Source of the DNA: Euzebya pacifica
GTDB taxonomy: Bacteria; Actinomycetota; Nitriliruptoria; Euzebyales; Euzebyaceae
Direction: 5' to 3'
Assembly: GCF_003344865.1 (NCBI RefSeq)
Contig: NZ_CP031165.1
Location: 3,477,910-3,541,909 of the forward strand
Length of the DNA stretch: 64,000 bases
The notes under the pieces were generated by a model that was not told where the DNA came from, ran no database searches, and saw only the letters and a list, made by a program, of their open reading frames with translations. Position 1 is the stretch's first letter. Each line of letters starts with the position of its first letter. The translations under genes and the position numbers were made by a program. Shown one piece after another: positions 4,354 to 39,663 of the stretch.

Positions 4354-5199
4354 TCAGGCGCGGGCCAGCCCCTGGCAGGTCGGGCAGCCCCAGATGGTCC
4401 GGGAACGGGGCGTCCACATCACGATCGGCGTGCCGCACCGATGGCACGGTCGGTCGTGGCGCTTGTAGACGTAGCGCTGCTCGTCGCGCGGCAACCGTCC
4501 GCGGCTGCGCCGTCCGACGTCGGCGGGTTCCACGGTGACGATGCGGCCCGACTTCTCCCCCAGGCGGAGCAGCGTCACCGCGTCGTCCCACAGCCCCATC
4601 ACCTGGTCCTCGGTGAGGTCGGCGGCGGGGGTGTCGGGATCGAGGCCTGCCCGGAAGAGCATCTCGGCCCGGTAGACGTTGCCGATGCCGGAGATGGCCT
4701 TCTGGTCCAGGAGGGCCTCGCCGATGGGAAGGCGGCGGCGACGCATCGCGGCCACGAAGCGTGACGGGTCGGCCTTCCGGTCCAGCGGGTCGGGTCCCAA
4801 CCGGCCGCGGATCGCCTCCTCCTCGGGCGGGGAGACGATGTCGACCACCGTCGCGCCGGCCAGGTAGATCGTCGTGCCGGCCGCGTCCTCCCCCTCGATG
4901 GTCCGCAGGGCCAGCCGGGTGCCTTCGGTCGGCGCAGGCGGCTCGTCGACGAAGGTGCGGAACTTGCCGAACAGCCCGAGGTGGATGTGCAGCAGCTCGC
5001 CGGTGGCGGTCCCGTCGGAGGTGCCCCACTCGTAGAACAGGTGCTTGCCCACCGCCCGGATGTCACGAACGGTGCCCCCGTCGAGCCGGGCCGCCCCGTC
5101 GGCGAACCGCCCCTGCGGCGACCACGCCGCCACCCGCTTCCCCACGAGGTGTCGACGTTGCAGCCGCGCGTGGCGGTGGATGGTGTGGCCTTCGGGCAT
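4354..5199 (-). CDS. nei: Fpg/Nei-family DNA glycosylase (endonuclease VIII-like)
   Basis: A 281-residue bifunctional DNA glycosylase/AP lyase for oxidised bases. The mature N-terminus is MPEGHTIHR: Pro2 is the catalytic Schiff-base nucleophile and Glu3 the general acid, which fixes the start at 5199. The middle has the H2TH helix region (LLDQKAISGIGNVYRAEMLF). The C-terminus has a zinc finger with two CxxC pairs (CHRC and CPTC), followed by only six residues. PEGHT rather than PELPE places it with the Nei branch, such as actinobacterial Nei2. The frame stays open upstream because of the repeat array, but the catalytic proline rules out an upstream start. Confidence 0.9.
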   Translation of the reverse strand: MPEGHTIHRHARLQRRHLVGKRVAAWSPQGRFADGAARLDGGTVRDIRAVGKHLFYEWGTSDGTATGELLHIHLGLFGKFRTFVDEPPAPTEGTRLALRTIEGEDAAGTTIYLAGATVVDIVSPPEEEAIRGRLGPDPLDRKADPSRFVAAMRRRRLPIGEALLDQKAISGIGNVYRAEMLFRAGLDPDTPAADLTEDQVMGLWDDAVTLLRLGEKSGRIVTVEPADVGRRSRGRLPRDEQRYVYKRHDRPCHRCGTPIVMWTPRSRTIWGCPTCQGLARA

Positions 5200-5224
5200 G
5201 CCGGCCAGTCTGCCCCTCCCCCCG

Positions 5225-5265
5225 CGGGTCGCCTCACCGGCACCCGGTGCCGGTGAGACGACCCG
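5225..5265. repeat. 18-bp near-perfect inverted repeat at the edge of array A
   Basis: Arms 5225-5242 and 5248-5265 are complementary at 17 of 18 positions, with a 5-nt CCCGG loop. The right arm is the first part of repeat unit A1, so the left arm acts as an inverted copy of the unit head. It lies 26 bases upstream of the nei start codon and could affect nei transcription. Confidence 0.8.
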
Positions 5266-5372
5266 CCTCGGAGGTGTGTCGTCTGGTCCGCGTGCCGTAC
5301 CGGTGGGGCAACACACTTCAAAGGTGCGTCGCCCCACCGCTCGGCCATGCCGGTGAGCCGACACACGGGAGG
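5248..5372. repeat. Array A: 50-bp-period hairpin repeats, about 2.5 copies
   Basis: The head sequence CCGGTGAG-type recurs at exactly 50-bp steps, with CGGT at 5251, 5301 and 5351. Each full unit carries an internal inverted repeat. In unit A1 the arms are AGACGAC and GTCGTCT; in unit A2 they are GGTGGGGC and GCCCCACC. The stem sequences differ but remain paired, which is covariation. The same unit family forms array B at 6394-6570, and the two arrays bracket the AbiEi/DUF559 gene. There is no coding explanation, although open frames run through it. Confidence 0.8.
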
Positions 5373-30207: not shown

Positions 30208-30293
30208 GGCGCGCCGAGAACTTGGACAAGAGGGACCTGGTGTCAACCCGACGGTCCCCTGTTCGACCGCCGCCTCGAGGAGCTCCTCTCACC

Positions 30294-31739
30294 ATGACCC
30301 GTCGCACCTCCACGGCGATGCTCGCGCTTGTCGCGCTGCTGAGCATCGCCGCCATCAACCCGCTGCAGTACATCGATGCCTGGACCGCCGAGGCTCGCGC
30401 CCACGGCCACAAGCTGGCCTACGCCGCCTCCGCGGAGATCCCCACCGAAACCGTGTCCGACATCCCGTGCGTGAACGGCATGGCAGGCGAGTTCGCCTGT
30501 GACGGCATCGACCTGCTCTCGTTCATGCCGTCCTCCGCGTTCGGTGGTGCCGTCGGCGATGCCGTGGCCAGTGCCGACGTGCTCGGCTTGATCTCCGGCA
30601 ACTCCGACGTGTGGGGCTGGACCGACACCCTGGACACCGAGGACACCGTCGACGACCAGGAGTACGCCATCATCGGCCACTCCCAGGGGACGGCGTTCAT
30701 CCGCGTCACTGACCCCTACAACCCCGTCTACATGGGTTCGGTCCCCAACACCGCCGCCGGCCAGCTGATCTGGCACGACATCAAGGTGATCGACAACTAC
30801 GCGCTGATCGTCTCGGAATCGGTCCCGCACGGCGTCCAGATCTTCGACATGACCCTCCTGCGGTCCATCCCCGACGCGGTCGTGGCCCCCTCGCCGCTGC
30901 CTGTCACCGGCTTCTATCCCCTGAGCGTCGCCCAGCACAACGTGGTGACCAACGACGACACCAACCGGGCCTACATCGTCGGTGGCGGCTCGATCGTCGG
31001 CGTCGACCCGGTCTGCGGTGGCGGGCTGGAGATCCTCGACTTCGTGGCGGGCGCGACGCTGACGCCGGCGGGCTGCTACGACACCGAGGGCTATGTCCAC
31101 GACGCCCAGTGCGTGACCTACGAGGGACCGGACACCGACTACACCGGACGCGAGATCTGCCTGCTCTTCGCCGAGCAGGAGATGTCCATCGTGGACGTCA
31201 CCGACGCCGCCAACCCGACCCGCATCGGCGCGCCCCTGGAGTACAACCACGCCTACACCCACCAGGGCTGGTTCACTGAGGACTTCCGCTACGTGCTGAT
31301 GAACGACGAGCTCGACGAGCAGGAGCTCGCCGAGGTCACCCACACCCGCACGCTGGTCGTCGACACCTCCGACCTCGATGCCCCCACGTTCGTCGGTGAG
31401 TTCCAGCGCGATGGCTCCGATGGCAACCCGGTCACCGTCTCCATCGACCACAACAACTACACCCACGACGGGATGGCCTTCCAGTCCAACTACGAGTCCG
31501 GCCTGCGGGTCATCGACCTGGGTTCCCTGGACCGTGACGAGGACCAGGACGGCAAGGCGGACTGGGACGAGATCGCCTTCTTCGACACCTATCCGGCCGA
31601 CGACGCCAACCCGGGCACCGAGTTCAACGGCACCTGGTCCAGCTACCCCTACTTCGACTCCGGCACGATCGTGGTGTCCGGCATCGGCGAGGGCATCTTC
31701 TTCCTGAAGCTGCAGGACGACGTCGGCCCCGCCGAGTAG
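30294..31739 (+). CDS. Choice-of-anchor B / LVIVD-repeat secreted protein, copy 1
   Basis: A 481-residue exported beta-propeller-like protein of the choice-of-anchor B type. An N-terminal signal (TAMLALVALLSIAAINP) is followed by the Cys-containing CVNGMAGEFACDGIDLLSF segment. Family phrases are SDVWGWTD, GTAFIRVTDPYNPVYMGS, HDIKVIDNYALIVSES, THQGWFTEDFRYVLMND, SIDHNNYTHDGMAFQSNY and NGTWSSYPYFDSGTIVVSGI. Several histidines and acidic residues are conserved across all three copies here, suggesting a metal or ligand site. No catalytic role is known. The ATG follows GAGGAG. TTG 30222 would be a longer alternative. Copy 2 follows after 115 bases. Confidence 0.85.
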   Translation: MTRRTSTAMLALVALLSIAAINPLQYIDAWTAEARAHGHKLAYAASAEIPTETVSDIPCVNGMAGEFACDGIDLLSFMPSSAFGGAVGDAVASADVLGLISGNSDVWGWTDTLDTEDTVDDQEYAIIGHSQGTAFIRVTDPYNPVYMGSVPNTAAGQLIWHDIKVIDNYALIVSESVPHGVQIFDMTLLRSIPDAVVAPSPLPVTGFYPLSVAQHNVVTNDDTNRAYIVGGGSIVGVDPVCGGGLEILDFVAGATLTPAGCYDTEGYVHDAQCVTYEGPDTDYTGREICLLFAEQEMSIVDVTDAANPTRIGAPLEYNHAYTHQGWFTEDFRYVLMNDELDEQELAEVTHTRTLVVDTSDLDAPTFVGEFQRDGSDGNPVTVSIDHNNYTHDGMAFQSNYESGLRVIDLGSLDRDEDQDGKADWDEIAFFDTYPADDANPGTEFNGTWSSYPYFDSGTIVVSGIGEGIFFLKLQDDVGPAE

Positions 31740-31854: not shown

Positions 31855-33270
31855 ATGACCCGTCGAACGTCCTCCGTCCTGATCGCCCTCGTCGCGCTCC
31901 TCGGCATCGCCGCCGCCAACCCCATGGCGCTGCTCGAGCAGCTGATGGCCGAGCAACGCGCCCACGTCCACAAGCCCGGCTACGCCGCCACGGCCGAGAT
32001 CCCCACCGACACGGTGACCGACGTGCCGTGCAAGGACGGCAAGGCGCTGGACTTCGCCTGCGACAACGTCGACCTACTGGCGTTCTGGCCCTCCGCGGAC
32101 TTCGGCGGGATCCTCTCGATGGACCCGACCGGCCAGGTGTTCTCCGGCAACTCCGACGTGTGGGGCTGGACCGACGCCGACACCGGCACCGAGATCGCCA
32201 TGATCGGCCACGCCAACGGCACGGCGTTCTTCCGGGTCAACGACGGCACCGACGCCGAGTACCTCGGCAGCGTCGTCAACACCGCCGCCCAGCACGCCAT
32301 CTGGCACGACATCAAGACCGTCAACGACCACGCGCTGATCGTCTCGGAGTCCGCCCCCAACCACGGCATGCAGGTCGTCGACCTCAGCGCCCTGGTCGAC
32401 GCACCGGCCGTCCCGGCGGGTACGCCCCTGCTGCCCGACGCGATCTTCACCGGCTCGGGCAGCCAGCACAACGTCGTCACCAACGACGACACCGACTTCG
32501 CCTACATCGTCGGTGGCGGGCTGAAGCTGCGGACCCCCATCGGCGGCATCGGCATCGCCTCGGAGTGCGACGGTGGCCTGTTCATGATCGACATGGCCGA
32601 CCCCCTGAACCCCGTCGACGCCGGCTGCTACGAAGGCGACGAGTACATCCACGACGCCCAGTGCGTCACCTACGCCGGCCCCGACACCCGCTACACCGGC
32701 CGCGAGATCTGCGCGACGTTCTCCGAGGACTACATGTCCTTCGTCGACGTGACCGACAAGGCCAACCCGCAGACTGTCGGGCGGCTGGGCTACGACGACA
32801 CCCAGTACACCCACCAGGGCTGGTTCACCGAGGACTTCCGCTACGTGCTGATGAACGACGAGCTCGACGAGATGCGGGCGAGCAACGTCACCCACACCCG
32901 CACGCTCGTGATCGACGCCACCGACCTGACCGCCCCGGTCCTGCACCACACCGCGATGCGTGACGGCACCGACGGCAACCCGGCCACCCCGTCGATCGAC
33001 CACAACAACTACACCCACGAGGGCCTGGCCTACCAGTCCAACTACACCGCCGGCCTGCGGATCATCGACATGGACGGGCTGGACGCCGCCACGCCAGTGT
33101 GGGACGAGGTGGCGTTCTTCGACACCTACCCCGCCGACGATGCGGCCACGTTCAACGGCACCTGGTCCAACTACCCGTACTTCGACTCGGGCGTCATCGT
33201 GGTCTCGGGCATCGGCGAGGGGATCTTCTTCCTGAAGCTTGACGATGCCGTGACCTCCACCATCGAATAG
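31855..33270 (+). CDS. Choice-of-anchor B / LVIVD-repeat secreted protein, copy 2
   Basis: A 471-residue paralogue of the preceding gene. The signal peptide is SVLIALVALLGIAAANP. The same signatures recur: CKDGKALDFACDNVDLLAFW, SDVWGWTDAD, HDIKTVNDHALIVSES, YIVGGGLKL, EYIHDAQCVTYAGPDTRYTG, DHNNYTHEGLAYQSNYTAGL and WSNYPYFDSGVIVVSGIGEG. The high identity in the second half indicates a recent tandem duplication, while the first half has diverged more. It is secreted and probably a repeat-propeller binding protein. Confidence 0.85.
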   Translation: MTRRTSSVLIALVALLGIAAANPMALLEQLMAEQRAHVHKPGYAATAEIPTDTVTDVPCKDGKALDFACDNVDLLAFWPSADFGGILSMDPTGQVFSGNSDVWGWTDADTGTEIAMIGHANGTAFFRVNDGTDAEYLGSVVNTAAQHAIWHDIKTVNDHALIVSESAPNHGMQVVDLSALVDAPAVPAGTPLLPDAIFTGSGSQHNVVTNDDTDFAYIVGGGLKLRTPIGGIGIASECDGGLFMIDMADPLNPVDAGCYEGDEYIHDAQCVTYAGPDTRYTGREICATFSEDYMSFVDVTDKANPQTVGRLGYDDTQYTHQGWFTEDFRYVLMNDELDEMRASNVTHTRTLVIDATDLTAPVLHHTAMRDGTDGNPATPSIDHNNYTHEGLAYQSNYTAGLRIIDMDGLDAATPVWDEVAFFDTYPADDAATFNGTWSNYPYFDSGVIVVSGIGEGIFFLKLDDAVTSTIE

Positions 33271-34490: not shown

Positions 34491-35246
34491 TCAGGCGGCG
34501 GCGAGCGCGTCGAGGGCCCGCTGGGCCAGCTCGGGCCGGCAGATGATGAGGTCGGGCAGGTACGGGTCGGCCCGGTTGTAGCGGAGGGGGTTGCCGTCCA
34601 GGCGCGAGACGTGCAGTCCTGCGGCGAGCGCCACCACAGCCGGGGCGGCGCTGTCCCACTCGTACTGTCCGCCGGCGTGGACATAGGCGTCGGCGACCCC
34701 TCGGACGACCGCCATGGCCTTGGCGCCCGCGCTGCCCATCGGCAGCAGCTGCCCGTCGAGGGCTGCGCGAACCCGTTCGGCCTGGGCCGGCGGTCGGGTG
34801 CGGCTGACCACGATCCGCGGGGGCCCGTCGACCGCAGCCGGCACCATCGGCGCATCGTCGGTGCCGAGGGTCAGGCCCATCGCGGGCAGCGCCACCGCAC
34901 CGGCGGTCAGCTCCTTCCCGCGCTCCCAGAGGGCGACGTGGACCGCCCAGTCGTCACGTGGCGGCTCGCCGAACTCGCGGGTCCCGTCGACCGGGTCGAT
35001 GATCCACACACGGTCCGCCGACAGCCGCACGTCGGTGTCGACGGCCTCCTCGCTCAGCACGGCGTCCTCGGGGAAGCAGTCGCGCAGCTGGGCGGCGATG
35101 AAGACCTGCGAGCCGGCGTCCCCGGCGTCCTTGAGGGCCTGGCGACGGGACACGGGGTCGGGATGGGCGTCGCGCATGCGCACCAGCAGCTCGCCGGCTT
35201 CGGTGGCGATGCGTCGCGCCTCGCGATGATCGGTGGGAGTGGCCAT
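34491..35246 (-). CDS. cysQ: CysQ-like 3'(2'),5'-bisphosphate nucleotidase / inositol monophosphatase family
   Basis: A 251-residue Li-sensitive phosphatase-fold enzyme. Metal-binding motifs are visible: SEE (VLSEEAVD), the signature WIIDPVDGTREF, and the C-terminal YEWDSAAP. In Actinobacteria CysQ removes the 3'-phosphate from PAP or PAPS during sulfate assimilation and can also act on fructose-1,6-bisphosphate or inositol phosphates. It follows the PP2C gene after only three bases, so the two are coupled. Confidence 0.85.
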   Translation of the reverse strand: MATPTDHREARRIATEAGELLVRMRDAHPDPVSRRQALKDAGDAGSQVFIAAQLRDCFPEDAVLSEEAVDTDVRLSADRVWIIDPVDGTREFGEPPRDDWAVHVALWERGKELTAGAVALPAMGLTLGTDDAPMVPAAVDGPPRIVVSRTRPPAQAERVRAALDGQLLPMGSAGAKAMAVVRGVADAYVHAGGQYEWDSAAPAVVALAAGLHVSRLDGNPLRYNRADPYLPDLIICRPELAQRALDALAAA

Positions 35247-35249
35247 GGG

Positions 35250-36005
35250 TCAGGTTCCTCGGGCGGTGTGGGCGAGGACGGCCAGCGCGATGTTGTCTCC
35301 CGCGCCTCCCTGTCCCGCAAGGTCGACGAGCGCACGAACGGCCGCCTCGGGCGCGAGGCCGGTCACGGCCGGTCCGATGGCGTCCAGGTGGGTGAAGTTG
35401 GTCAGGCCGTCGCTTGCCACGACGACGACGTCGCCGTCGACGAGCTCGGTGACGGAGTGGTCGAGCGAACCGGCCATCTCGGGGGCGCTCAGCCGGTCCC
35501 CCATGAACCGGTGGCGGTCGCGGGTGACCTGGGTGGCCACGCCGTCCCGCACGACGATGACCGCGGAGTCGCCCACACCAGCGGTCTCCAGCGTCCCGGC
35601 GCCGTCGTCACCGCGGGCGACGATCGCCAGCACCATCGTGGACCTGGTGCCGCGGCTGGGACCGGTCAGCTGGCGACGGACCGCCCGCATGTGCTCGTTG
35701 GCCTCGTGGAACGCGATGACCGCGGGGCGCTTGTCGAGCCGAGCCGGCAGCGGGTCGGGCAGCGCGTCGAGCAGCCCGTCGACCAGCGCATGGCTGCCCT
35801 CGTGGCCGTTGTGGCCGTCGGCGACGACCAACGCCGTCACCCCGCCCTCACGGACGACCGCCACGACGTCCTCGTTGGGGTCCACGTACTCGTAGCGCTT
35901 GGGATGGGGACCGCGGGTGATCCCGATCGCCAGGTCGTCGGCAGGCGTCAGGACCTCCACGACGCCGACGTCGGTGAAGTCGCGGCCCAGCAGGATGGCG
36001 TCCAT
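35250..36005 (-). CDS. PP2C-family Ser/Thr phosphatase-like protein
   Basis: A 251-residue PP2C-fold protein. The metal site VVADGHNGHEGSHALVDGLL corresponds to the canonical DGxxGH motif; later motifs are AGVGDSAVIVV, VVVVASDGLTNF and GAGDNIALAVL. These cover the PP2C metal-binding aspartates. An N-terminal segment of about 55 residues precedes the first motif. ATG 36005 is followed on the other strand by the decapeptide-repeat gene after 45 bases, so the two share a divergent promoter region. It heads a probable PP2C-cysQ-SRPBCC operon. Confidence 0.75.
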   Translation of the reverse strand: MDAILLGRDFTDVGVVEVLTPADDLAIGITRGPHPKRYEYVDPNEDVVAVVREGGVTALVVADGHNGHEGSHALVDGLLDALPDPLPARLDKRPAVIAFHEANEHMRAVRRQLTGPSRGTRSTMVLAIVARGDDGAGTLETAGVGDSAVIVVRDGVATQVTRDRHRFMGDRLSAPEMAGSLDHSVTELVDGDVVVVASDGLTNFTHLDAIGPAVTGLAPEAAVRALVDLAGQGGAGDNIALAVLAHTARGT

Positions 36006-36050
36006 GGCCCGAAGGGTAGTGGCCGTCGGAGAAGGTGGAAGAATGCCGCC

Positions 36051-36479
36051 ATGATCAAGTGGCTGGACGTGGGCGTGGAGGCAGAGGGGTTCGTCGCGGT
36101 CGGTCAGCACGCCGTCGGCGTGATCGCGATCGGGCAGGTGGCCACGGGTGTCGTGGCGATCGGCCAGCTGGCCCGAGGGGTGATCGTGGTGGGCCAGCTC
36201 GCCGCCGGCATCATCGTGCTCGGACAGCTGTCCCTCGGGGTGGCGTGGAGCGCCGGCATGGTCGGGATCGGCGCCACGTCGCCGGGATGGCTGGTCCTGC
36301 CGCTGCTCGGTGGGTCGCGTGGCAGCCGGGTCGACCTCGTCTCCGGCCCCCGGCTGGTGGTGGGCCTCGTGGTCCTCGTCGGCCTGGCCGCAGCGTGGTG
36401 GCTCGGGGTCGGGCAGAAGCTGGTGGACGTGCTGCTCGGCGACGGCGGGATCCTACAGCCCGAACGGCAGCTTCGCTGA
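36051..36479 (+). CDS. Decapeptide-repeat membrane-associated protein
   Basis: A 142-residue protein of no family I can name. From residue 16 it holds about five tandem 10-residue repeats of the form (V/I/L)GQxAxGVI(A/V): VGQHAVGVIA, IGQVATGVVA, IGQLARGVIV, VGQLAAGIIV, LGQLSLGVAW. Such short glycine-punctuated repeats suggest a left-handed solenoid. The C-terminal part has a hydrophobic helix (LVVGLVVLVGLAAAWWL). It is divergent from a PP2C phosphatase and 54 bases upstream of the ABC1 kinase gene, so it may be part of either unit. Confidence 0.6.
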   Translation: MIKWLDVGVEAEGFVAVGQHAVGVIAIGQVATGVVAIGQLARGVIVVGQLAAGIIVLGQLSLGVAWSAGMVGIGATSPGWLVLPLLGGSRGSRVDLVSGPRLVVGLVVLVGLAAAWWLGVGQKLVDVLLGDGGILQPERQLR

Positions 36480-36533: not shown

Positions 36534-37934
36534 ATGGCACGCAACCCCGACGACGACCCGAAGGCCCCCTCCCCTGCCCTTGGCAGCCGGGCCAGCCGGG
36601 CGGGTGACCTCGCGAAGTTCTCCGCCAACGCCGGGGTCGGCATGGTGGCGGCCCGCCTGCGGCAGATGGCCGGCAACGACGACGCCGCCGACGCCTTCCA
36701 TGGCCGCACGGCCCAGCAGGCTGCCGAACTGCTCGGCTCGATGAAGGGGCTGGCCATGAAGATGGGCCAGATCGCCTCGTTCGTCGACGTCGACCTGCCC
36801 GAGGAGGTCCGCGACACCTACCGCGACCAGCTCGCGGCGCTCCAGGCCGCCGCCCCGGCGATGGACACCGCGGTGATCGCCGAGGTGATCGAGGAGCAGT
36901 ACGGCGCCCCTCCCGAGGACGTCTTCGCCACCTGGGACCCCGAGCCGCTGGCCAGCGCCTCGATCGGGCAGGTCCACCGCGCCACCCTCCCCGACGGCAC
37001 CGAGGTCATCACCAAGGTGCAGTACCCCGGCATCGCCGAGGCCATCGAGCACGACCTGGACAACGCCGAGGTGCTGGCCCCCCTCGTGAAGGTCGTCAGC
37101 CCGAACCTGCAGGTCAGGCCGCTGATGACGGAGCTGCGCGACCGGATGCGCGACGAGCTGGACTACCAGCGGGAGGCGCAGTACCAGCACGCGTTCGCGC
37201 AGCGCTACGACGGCCATCCGTTCGTCCGCATCCCTGCCGTGCACGCCGACTGGTGCCGACCCCGGGTGCTCGTCGCCGACTACGTCCGCGGGGCATCGTT
37301 CGAGACGATGCTGCAGACGGCCACCGAGGAGGCGAAGCAGCGCTACGCCGAGGCGATCTACCGGTTCTCCTTCGGGTCGCTGCACCGGTTCCGGCTGTTC
37401 AACGGCGACCCGCACCCGGGCAACTACCTGTTCCCCGGCGACGGGACCGTCGTGTTCGTGGACTTCGGGGCGGTCAAGGCGTTCAGCTCCGAGACCCGTT
37501 CGCTGATCCGCCGCCAGCTCGCCCCGCTGTGGGAGAACGACACGGCCGCGCTGATGGACGTCTTCGACGAGGCCGGTTTCTTCCCCGGCACCCGTCCGGA
37601 CCCCGAGCGGCTGATGGAATGGTTCCGCTTGTTCAACCGGCCGGTGGTCGACCACGAGCCGTTCACCTACACCGCCGAGTTCGCCCGTGCCGTCATCACC
37701 GCGACGTCGGACCCACGGGGTGGGTACCTGGACATGATCCGCAAGCTGAACCTGCCGCCGGACTACCTGGTGCTCAACCGGATCCAGTGGGGCGTGAACT
37801 CGATCCTGGCGATGCTCGGCGCCACGAACCGCTGGCGATCCATCTCCGAGGAGTTCTGGTTCGGCGCGCCGCCGGCGACACCGATGGGCGAGGAGGAACG
37901 GCCGTTCATCGACGCGTCGCCGTACTTGGCGTGA
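36534..37934 (+). CDS. ABC1/UbiB-family atypical kinase
   Basis: A 466-residue UbiB/AarF/ADCK protein. The family signature [10 protein letters not shown] carries the KxGQ motif. ASIGQVHRA is the Ala-rich nucleotide loop, VDFGAVKAF carries the DFG-like metal motif and [11 protein letters not shown] the catalytic loop. Members have ATPase activity and support quinone biosynthesis or lipid metabolism. A disordered N-terminus precedes the fold. It follows the decapeptide-repeat gene on the same strand. Confidence 0.9.
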
Positions 37935-38127
37935 TTCCTGCCCACGCCGCGTGCGATTTCGGCGCGAGAGGTGTCCTAGTCACCCACGAGAACAGACGCG
38001 GTTCTGTGTCGAGCCGGGGTATCCTCAGGCCGATCAGGGGTCGCACACCCGTCCCGCGGGGTTGAGTTCCCCTCCGCAGGCTGCACACAATGCGACTCCG
38101 ACGAGCCCCGGAAGGTCCGCCGATTCG

Positions 38128-39663
38128 ATGAAGAAGTTCCTGTTCACAGCGCTGGCAGTGGCGCTGCTGGTCCCCGCCGTACCCGGCGGAGCCCAGCTAC
38201 CGGTCGGGTCCACCCCGACCCCGACCCCGACGCCGACTCCCACGGCGACGACGGCGGCCACGACCTCCACGACGCCCCAGCAGATCTACGCCGGTCGCAC
38301 CTCGACCCGCGGCCTCGCCCTGACCATCGCCGGCCAGGGCCTGCGCGCGGGTGTGACGACCACCAACGTGGCGTCCGACACCACCGACACCTGCACCGGG
38401 CTGGCCTGTGCCACCGCTGCCGGTGTGGCGGAGCCCTTCGGTGAGACGGCGACGTCGACCACTCCCGGTGGCGAGCCCACCGCGTCGGTCGAGGTCGCCA
38501 ACCTGGACGCCTTCGCCGGCGCCCTGGACGGCGTGATCGGTGCGGCCACGGCCACCACGACCAGCGGCCCGGCCGCTGACGGCACCGCCAACGGCCTGAC
38601 CGTCGACGTCACCCTCACCCAGACCGTCGTCGGCCAGCTCCCCGCTGAACTCACGGGGCCCCTCAACGACGGCCTCGGACAGATCGCCGAGGCGCTGCAG
38701 CCCCTCGCCGACGGCGACCCGACGGGCATCGTCAGCGGCGTCACCGACCAGCTGACCGTCCTGCTGGACGACCTGGCTGCCGGCCCGCTGCTGCGCATCC
38801 AGGGCGGACAGTCGACGTCCAACTCCACCTTCGACGACGGCACGGTCACCTCCACGGCCGCCACCGAGGGCGTCATCATCACCCTCCTGCCGACGCCGGA
38901 GTCCACCCCGCTGCTGCCCGAGGGCATCGCGGTCATCGAGGTCGGTCGCTCGACCGCGGTCGCCACCGCCGACGGCACCAACCCGGCCACCGCCGACGCA
39001 TCGGCGTCGATCGCCAAGATCACGCTGCTGCCGGGCATCCTCGACGCCCTGCCGGACCTGGACCCGGGCGAGGCCGAGGGCCTGCCGCTGGAGGACCTGC
39101 TGGACCTGCTGCCGGAGGAGATCACCGACCTCCTGCCCGAGCCCATCACGGGCCTGCTGGGCGGCGGCGGCTCCGAGGAGCCGACCGCGACCCCGACGGC
39201 GACCACCACCGAGGAGGAGGGCGGCCCGCTGGACGACATCCTCCCCCGGTCGATGTACATGCAGGCCGACGAGGACTCCGGCGGCTTCGTGATCAACCTG
39301 GAGACGGGCACCGAGACCACCTGCATCCTCGAGGGCACACCCCTGGAGACCTGCATCACCCTCGGCGGCACCAGCCAGACCTTCAGCGAGGACAACCTCG
39401 GGGTCGGCGTCCTGGCTGCCGGTGCCGACGTCTCCCTGCTCCGCGCTGACGGCCAGGGCCAGGTCGAGATCTCGCTGGCTCGGTCCGAGGCGGGCGCGGC
39501 TGCCGGGTTCACCCAGGTGACCCCGCCGACCCCCACGCCGACCCCGACCCCCCAGACCGGCCTGCCGGCGACGGGTGGCGGCACCTCGTTCCTGGTGCCC
39601 GCGCTGATGCTCATGGGCATCGGTGGGACCGCGCTGTTCGGCCTCCGTCGCCGACGGAGCTGA
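38128..39663 (+). CDS. LPATG sortase-anchored surface protein with Thr-Pro linkers
   Basis: A 511-residue exported protein. The signal peptide is KKFLFTALAVALLVPAVPGGA. A threonine-proline repeat follows at about residues 29-42, with another before the C-terminus. The cell-wall sorting signal is LPATG at about 479, followed by a hydrophobic helix (SFLVPALMLMGIGGTALFGL) and RRRRS. The central region is rich in Thr, Ala and Asp and lacks a recognised domain; it may be an adhesin or a stalk. No sortase gene lies in this window. The start is chosen because the signal peptide begins there. Confidence 0.85.
   Translation: MKKFLFTALAVALLVPAVPGGAQLPVGSTPTPTPTPTPTATTAATTSTTPQQIYAGRTSTRGLALTIAGQGLRAGVTTTNVASDTTDTCTGLACATAAGVAEPFGETATSTTPGGEPTASVEVANLDAFAGALDGVIGAATATTTSGPAADGTANGLTVDVTLTQTVVGQLPAELTGPLNDGLGQIAEALQPLADGDPTGIVSGVTDQLTVLLDDLAAGPLLRIQGGQSTSNSTFDDGTVTSTAATEGVIITLLPTPESTPLLPEGIAVIEVGRSTAVATADGTNPATADASASIAKITLLPGILDALPDLDPGEAEGLPLEDLLDLLPEEITDLLPEPITGLLGGGGSEEPTATPTATTTEEEGGPLDDILPRSMYMQADEDSGGFVINLETGTETTCILEGTPLETCITLGGTSQTFSEDNLGVGVLAAGADVSLLRADGQGQVEISLARSEAGAAAGFTQVTPPTPTPTPTPQTGLPATGGGTSFLVPALMLMGIGGTALFGLRRRRS

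Follow-up and report, generated by a model that had tools for sequence, protein, structure and literature searches.

What does a small repeat protein do between a phosphatase gene and an atypical kinase gene, and does it work with either of them? The question is raised by a stretch of 64,000 nucleotides from Euzebya pacifica (NZ_CP031165.1), referred to here as the window, in which a 142-amino-acid open frame (36051..36479, + strand) is flanked by a PP2C-type phosphatase gene (35250..36005, − strand; PF13672, 37.8 bits against a cut-off of 24) and an ABC1/UbiB-type atypical kinase gene (36534..37934, + strand; PF03109, 205 bits against a cut-off of 22.9). The original prediction combined the three into a membrane-associated signalling or quality-control unit, with the repeat protein as its scaffold. 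The packing is as tight as it described: the start codons of the divergent PP2C and repeat genes (the PP2C ATG at 36005, −, and 36051, +) enclose a gap of 45 bases (36006..36050), and the ABC1 gene follows directly, with its start at 36534 (+), 54 bases past the repeat-gene stop. Both neighbours are nevertheless judged here to lie outside the system. The answer moderately favoured is that the repeat protein would be an independent, C-tail-anchored, amphipathic Gly-pentad beta-solenoid providing a platform at the membrane surface, whose gene was probably gained, in two genomes of the genus, between PP2C and ABC1.

The repeats themselves are real. The array (36069..36248, +; residues 7–66) comprises six decapeptide units, or twelve pentads, with a Gly at nearly every fifth residue and degenerate units at its ends. 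The five units reported earlier occupy residues 17–66 (VGQHAVGVIA, IGQVATGVVA, IGQLARGVIV, VGQLAAGIIV and LGQLSLGVAW). An additional degenerate unit, VGVEAEGFVA, lies ahead of them at residues 7–16, and its Gly positions are retained in at least 90% of family rows. The last of the five, LGQLSLGVAW, departs from the consensus first given for the units, (V/I/L)GQxAxGVI(A/V). Compared with itself at lag 10, the stretch of residues 6–75 matches at 29 positions, and no shuffle among 200,000 exceeded 20. At lag 5 the count for this stretch is 21, so that the basic period is five and the decapeptide is a double pentad. At the DNA level the units agree at 18–22 of 30 bases, different codons are used in 24 of the 55 same-residue pairs between units, and Tandem Repeats Finder (score 40) called no tandem DNA repeat inside the gene. 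The repeat is therefore a feature of the protein, and a recent tandem duplication of DNA is ruled out. The gene is the sole match to itself within its own genome at E 0.001. Between the window copy and that of a second genus genome, G002, 134 of 142 residues are kept, and the dN of 0.037 against a dS of 0.350 indicates a selected protein-coding gene, one that on this sequence comparison is under purifying selection.

The membrane helix that had been expected after the array is also predicted here, at residues about 102–120 (36354..36410, +; mean Kyte–Doolittle hydropathy 2.45), and the AlphaFold2 model of the window protein places a helix at residues 101–129. The short tail behind it (36411..36476, +), LLGDGGIL, resembles the LFGPGGVF tails of two relatives, L018 and L011. 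A hydrophobic C-terminal segment is present in 20 of 20 aligned members: the best 19-residue window past residue 88, the only region scored and with one segment counted per member, lies near the C-terminus in each and has a mean hydropathy of at least 1.79. The pattern of charges flanking the segment is weak and uneven.

Relatives of the protein are few. In a scan of named genomes, 12 loci were supported by tblastn, mostly from Myxococcota-type MAGs (Sandaracinaceae, Polyangiaceae, Myxococcales and others), together with Actinocorallia and one Actinomycetota MAG; of these loci, L015 was subsequently excluded. Profile searches, which scored part of each genome's first-look candidates and may let weak relatives escape, returned 16 of 296 genomes of the window's phylum at E ≤ 0.001, only three of them at 1e-25 or better (the window's own genome, G002 and G316). 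Among 282 genomes of the phylum of G336, searched in the same manner, 14 passed 1e-8 and 11 of these reached 1e-32 or better, four of the 11 (G336, G327, G329 and G333) being already known as carriers. Judged from these searches, the family is sparse and scattered, with members in Myxococcota and in a few Actinomycetota, that is, in at least two phyla. Some genes were picked with an in-house heuristic, and individual frames may be misassigned. The family count leaves out L015/L066, L003, L019–L036 (bar L018, the strong G316 row, which was kept), L067–L075 and L083–L085. Several of these uncounted rows are long low-complexity frames, and three look like distant relatives: L026, and two longer proteins with looser Gly-pentad stretches, L070 (G337:C280; GVIAIGGAPVGVIAVGALARG) and L085 (G591:C61; GVIAIGQVDAAG). 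Separately, L025, L026, L029, L030 and L023 represent another sort of Gly-pentad protein, of the GIVASGDKAVGVVASG type, that occurs in the window's phylum.

Conservation within the family is specific to position. Alignment A2 contains 20 members (L061, which is the same locus as L006 with a frame cut after 110 residues, is in alignment A1 and omitted from A2) and has 13 invariant columns: eight Gly between 18 and 53, A26, A36, A41, Q39 and R42. The last of these, encoded at 36174..36176 (+) within the motif GQ[VLA]ARG, is found in 20 of 20 members, and T32 in 17 of 20. Individual repeats thus keep residues of their own, which argues for one shared design and not for chance low complexity. Five members (P0001, L002, L018, L011 and L064), regarded as actinobacterial, measure 142–154 amino acids and lack a long middle region, which is present in the remaining 15, of 214–242 amino acids. 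The only middle region modelled is that of the Myxococcota member L055, with pLDDT values of 93–96 over residues 101–170. VIA-align of its residues 94–175 gave rows with Z of 5.6–6.8 and rmsd of 2.5–3.8 over 61–83 residues, a Z under 8 being one that may mean only a common arrangement, and Foldseek with the L055 model reached a best E of 0.074. The VIA-align rows are, as we take them, mainly OB-fold proteins, and on that account the domain is called OB-like. The Myxococcota members are longer proteins, with a middle domain that in the modelled case is predicted to be OB-like.

Searches of reference collections leave the family apparently undescribed, a judgement based on weak Pfam and NCBIfam matches and on literature searches in which neither the repeat motif strings nor a bacterial decapeptide-repeat solenoid was found. 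No NCBIfam match to any of the 20 members was better than E 0.06. Matches of the window protein to prepro-orexin (PF02072, E 0.07) and to a short-chain dehydrogenase (E 0.9) were taken as chance. A scan of viral contigs with a single pattern produced seven pattern matches, none of them confirmed; with no confirmed viral-contig match and no plasmid match, a mobile or viral origin of the repeat gene was set aside.

Does the protein have a partner elsewhere? The clearest candidate is a multi-zinc-ribbon gene. Of the 19 family loci outside the genus, 6, all among the 16 on the Myxococcota side, have it in divergent orientation to the repeat gene (L009:4351-5514, L013:5003-5977, L086:6654-7718, L087 at about 4373-5326, L088 at about 246-1106 and L089:7585-8919). 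The four zinc-ribbon sequences that were printed end, by eye, in a hydrophobic stretch. In the family tree the six loci make up one whole clade, with no other row in it (support 88/87), and this clade joins the window's pair at 80/77; both values fall below the tree tool's mark for firm branches, and L006 stands outside the tree. Of the 282 genomes, 11 have the repeat protein (at E 1e-32 or better), eight the zinc-ribbon protein (at E 1e-20 or better) and six both, a co-occurrence with a Fisher P of 1.9e-8 when kinship is ignored. The two genes are adjacent in five of the six co-occurring genomes and on different contigs in the sixth, G327; G570 and G585 have the zinc-ribbon protein but not the repeat protein. 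Such a pattern would suit a membrane complex of the Myxococcota repeat/OB protein with the zinc-ribbon protein, of which the actinobacterial proteins would be trimmed forms that have dispensed with both the OB-like domain and the partner. As an account of the family this is unlikely: the five actinobacterial carriers (G000, G002, G316, G330 and G334) yielded no zinc-ribbon relative, nor did five of the nine other Myxococcota-side carriers, two of the remaining four matching weakly, and the clade that carries the argument is itself below the firm-branch mark. On these results the zinc-ribbon protein is not a universal partner, and it cannot be required in the window's organism. Other clades have different neighbours. 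An SNF2-type gene is present at L091 on Pfam evidence and, by grouping, at L008 and L010. At L012 (by Pfam) and L090 (by grouping) the neighbours are a 4Fe-4S protein and a pyridine-nucleotide oxidoreductase. No recurring partner gene was seen at the actinobacterial family loci.

As to the fold of the array, AlphaFold2 with ten sequences gave the window protein a mean pLDDT of 65 and a pTM of 0.42, with 10-residue block means of 78–90 over residues 1–50, 65 over 51–60 and 45 over 61–70; with twenty sequences, L055 obtained block values of 69–84 across residues 1–70. Both models contain beta structure in the array. In residues 30–47 of L055, four successive pentads each contribute a strand of three residues, interrupted for two residues at Gly-x; in other parts of the two models the strands run for eight residues or more, not three. 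The array is thus predicted to fold as a beta-solenoid, whose coils would take 10 or 20 residues, followed by the C-terminal membrane helix, and of the compact solenoid proposed earlier it is the beta structure that the models bear out, the solenoid standing as a prediction. Among solved structures there was no match to the repeat part of either protein. A fold search with the window-protein model returned ten rows, all with E above 1 and TM of about 0.1, which were taken as carrying no information; they are mostly enzymes with left-handed beta-helices, plus a budworm antifreeze protein. VIA-align of the same model gave a single row, covering the C-terminal helix only, and a viral fold search yielded nothing at E 0.001 or below.

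The composition of the pentads is sharply divided. In the GV pentads (GVIAI), all 300 cells at pentad positions 2, 3 and 5 are free of polar residues; the GQ pentads (GQxAx) are polar at position 2 in 86 of 100 cells and at position 5 in 54 of 100. As the invariant Arg42 occupies position 5, this position is likely to point outward. The core would then consist of Ala and Gly, and the solenoid would have one greasy face and one mixed face. A different reading of the same residues is that the repeat crosses the membrane as two or three alpha-helices packed closely through their Gly residues and that AlphaFold2 misreads the array. Hydropathy lends this some credit, since 19-residue windows across the repeat reach means of 1.2–1.9, near the usual membrane thresholds. 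It is nonetheless improbable: two models built from different alignments are both beta in the array, Gly at every fifth and Gln at every tenth residue miss a single helix face, and the nearest sequence model, though weak, is a pentapeptide repeat (PF01469).

On the favoured beta-solenoid reading, the N-terminal 70 residues would form a Gly-pentad solenoid with two kinds of side, one wholly hydrophobic (GVIAI) and the other more polar (GQxAx, with the invariant Arg). The protein would most likely sit on the cytosolic surface of the membrane, its hydrophobic face most likely sunk into the inner leaflet or packed on a second copy. The solenoid would thereby serve as a small platform, for the membrane or for oligomerisation, which in Myxococcota would also bear the OB-like domain. 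A bolder version is conceivable, and in its entirety doubtful: that these are very thin, two-sided beta-solenoids with ten residues per coil and a core of Ala and Gly only, one wholly hydrophobic face lying in the inner leaflet and the other presenting a Gln ladder with the invariant Arg, bearing an OB-like cargo domain or none, and paired in Myxococcota with the divergently encoded, tail-anchored zinc-ribbon protein.

The remaining part of the question concerns PP2C and ABC1. Four genomes of the genus were compared: the window's own, G001, G002 and G003. G002 keeps the order PP2C, repeat gene, ABC1, including the next gene beyond PP2C, which we take to be IMPase-like. In G001 and G003 the divergent PP2C and ABC1 start codons lie roughly 97 and 75 bases apart (the PP2C start in G003 is uncertain), the aligned gap holds no trace of the repeat gene, and neither whole genome has a repeat-gene match elsewhere at E 0.001. 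The ABC1 protein is 97% identical to that of the window in G002, against 75% in G001 and 73% in G003, so the two carriers are nearest each other. By our own reading of the gap sequences, each gene keeps a candidate −10-like element near its start. PP2C, the putatively IMPase-like gene and ABC1 (window 34491–36005 and 36534–37934) stand together in 4 of 4 genus genomes, with the repeat gene or without it. Outside the genus, tblastn with the window's PP2C and ABC1 gave no flank match at 1e-4 at any of the 19 family loci, whose flanks vary in length (L006 and L014 are contigs under 4 kb). In G005 and in G006, the repeat gene and a PP2C match are both missing from the best ABC1 locus. Protein-kinase-like genes lie about 1–3 kb from the repeat gene in 3 of the 19 loci (L007, L086 and L092, by grouping), with Pfam confirmation only in L092.

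A scaffold joining PP2C and ABC1 at the membrane in a signalling or quality-control unit, for which the tight packing, the order retained in G002 and the persistence of the PP2C/ABC1 pair throughout the four genomes can be cited, is very improbable and largely refuted by genome context, since the pair does without the repeat gene in G001 and G003 and no PP2C or ABC1 relative turned up in the flanks of the 19 loci outside. The outcome that the original prediction itself named as refuting, a neighbourhood that is not conserved and a repeat protein in unrelated contexts, is thus the one observed. PP2C and ABC1 look like chance neighbours of the repeat gene, not partners. The independent platform protein would then be dedicated to neither, its gene most likely gained once by the ancestor of the two carriers, in which PP2C and ABC1 already formed a divergent pair. 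Absence from G001 and G003 could instead reflect loss; one gain into the PP2C/ABC1 gap appears to be the simplest history. Close spacing to a phosphatase gene and a kinase gene, in this case, did not imply a functional unit.

Further features of the surroundings deserve a brief record. Upstream in the window, 30222-31739 and 31855-33270 encode two adjacent, exported-type proteins that look similar by eye; the second matches two adjoining places in G002, at 92% and 59% identity. Downstream of ABC1, 38127-39663 encodes an exported-looking, Pro/Thr-rich protein with a putative LPATGG-like sorting signal and a hydrophobic end.

How does the family compare with known repeat proteins? Bactofilins (PF04519), in our understanding small beta-helices with a hydrophobic core that work at the membrane, presumably offer a functional analogy; no Pfam match to PF04519 was obtained for the window protein or the 20 members. 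The only Pfam repeat models that touch the 20 members are GLTT and Pentapeptide_2, both weakly. The GLTT repeat (PF01744) matches two of 20, with a best E of 0.0055, and the L011 protein scores 16.9 bits, below the cut-off of 21. The beta-flower/Tubby-like families (PF21784-PF21786) are described as beta repeats with short strands, many of which carry a hydrophobic helix at the C-terminus (PMC10584680). Identity with them was rejected: none of the three models is among the matches of the 20 members up to E 1, and the described tip motif [DNEQ]XXG does not fit the Q-x-A-x-G found here. A further mark of these families would be a shallow antiparallel barrel around the C-terminal helix.

The closest likeness is to Pentapeptide_2 (PF01469), which shares the five-residue period and the Gly in every unit. 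Weak matches to it (E up to 1) were given by 8 of the 20 members, with a best E of 7.7e-4; four score 13.2–14 bits, below the curated cut-off of 26.4, and the window protein has no match up to E 1. The non-member L026 scores 20.8 bits against this model at E 3.7e-4, so the best member must lie below 20.8 bits. PF01469 comprises the XNXGX repeats of mycobacterial PE/PPE_MPTR proteins, whose structure is unknown and whose sister families are reported to be four-sided beta-helices (PMC4858275). The family departs from the XNXGX pattern: Gly does recur every five residues, but in the columns counted Asn never stands two positions ahead of it, where Ala or Ser predominates. A pentapeptide-repeat four-sided beta-helix is a parallel beta-helix with four five-residue sides; in the L055 model, three-residue strands follow one another every five residues over residues 30–47 only. 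If the solenoid reading is true, pentapeptide-like solenoids can consist almost purely of hydrophobic and small residues and be tail-anchored at the membrane. The family, with its weak Pfam and NCBIfam matches, spans at least two phyla and has a candidate partner in Myxococcota. Set against PF01469, it is distinguished by its richness in Val, Ile and Leu, its short array of fixed length, its tail anchor and the lack of any matched PE/PPE domain.
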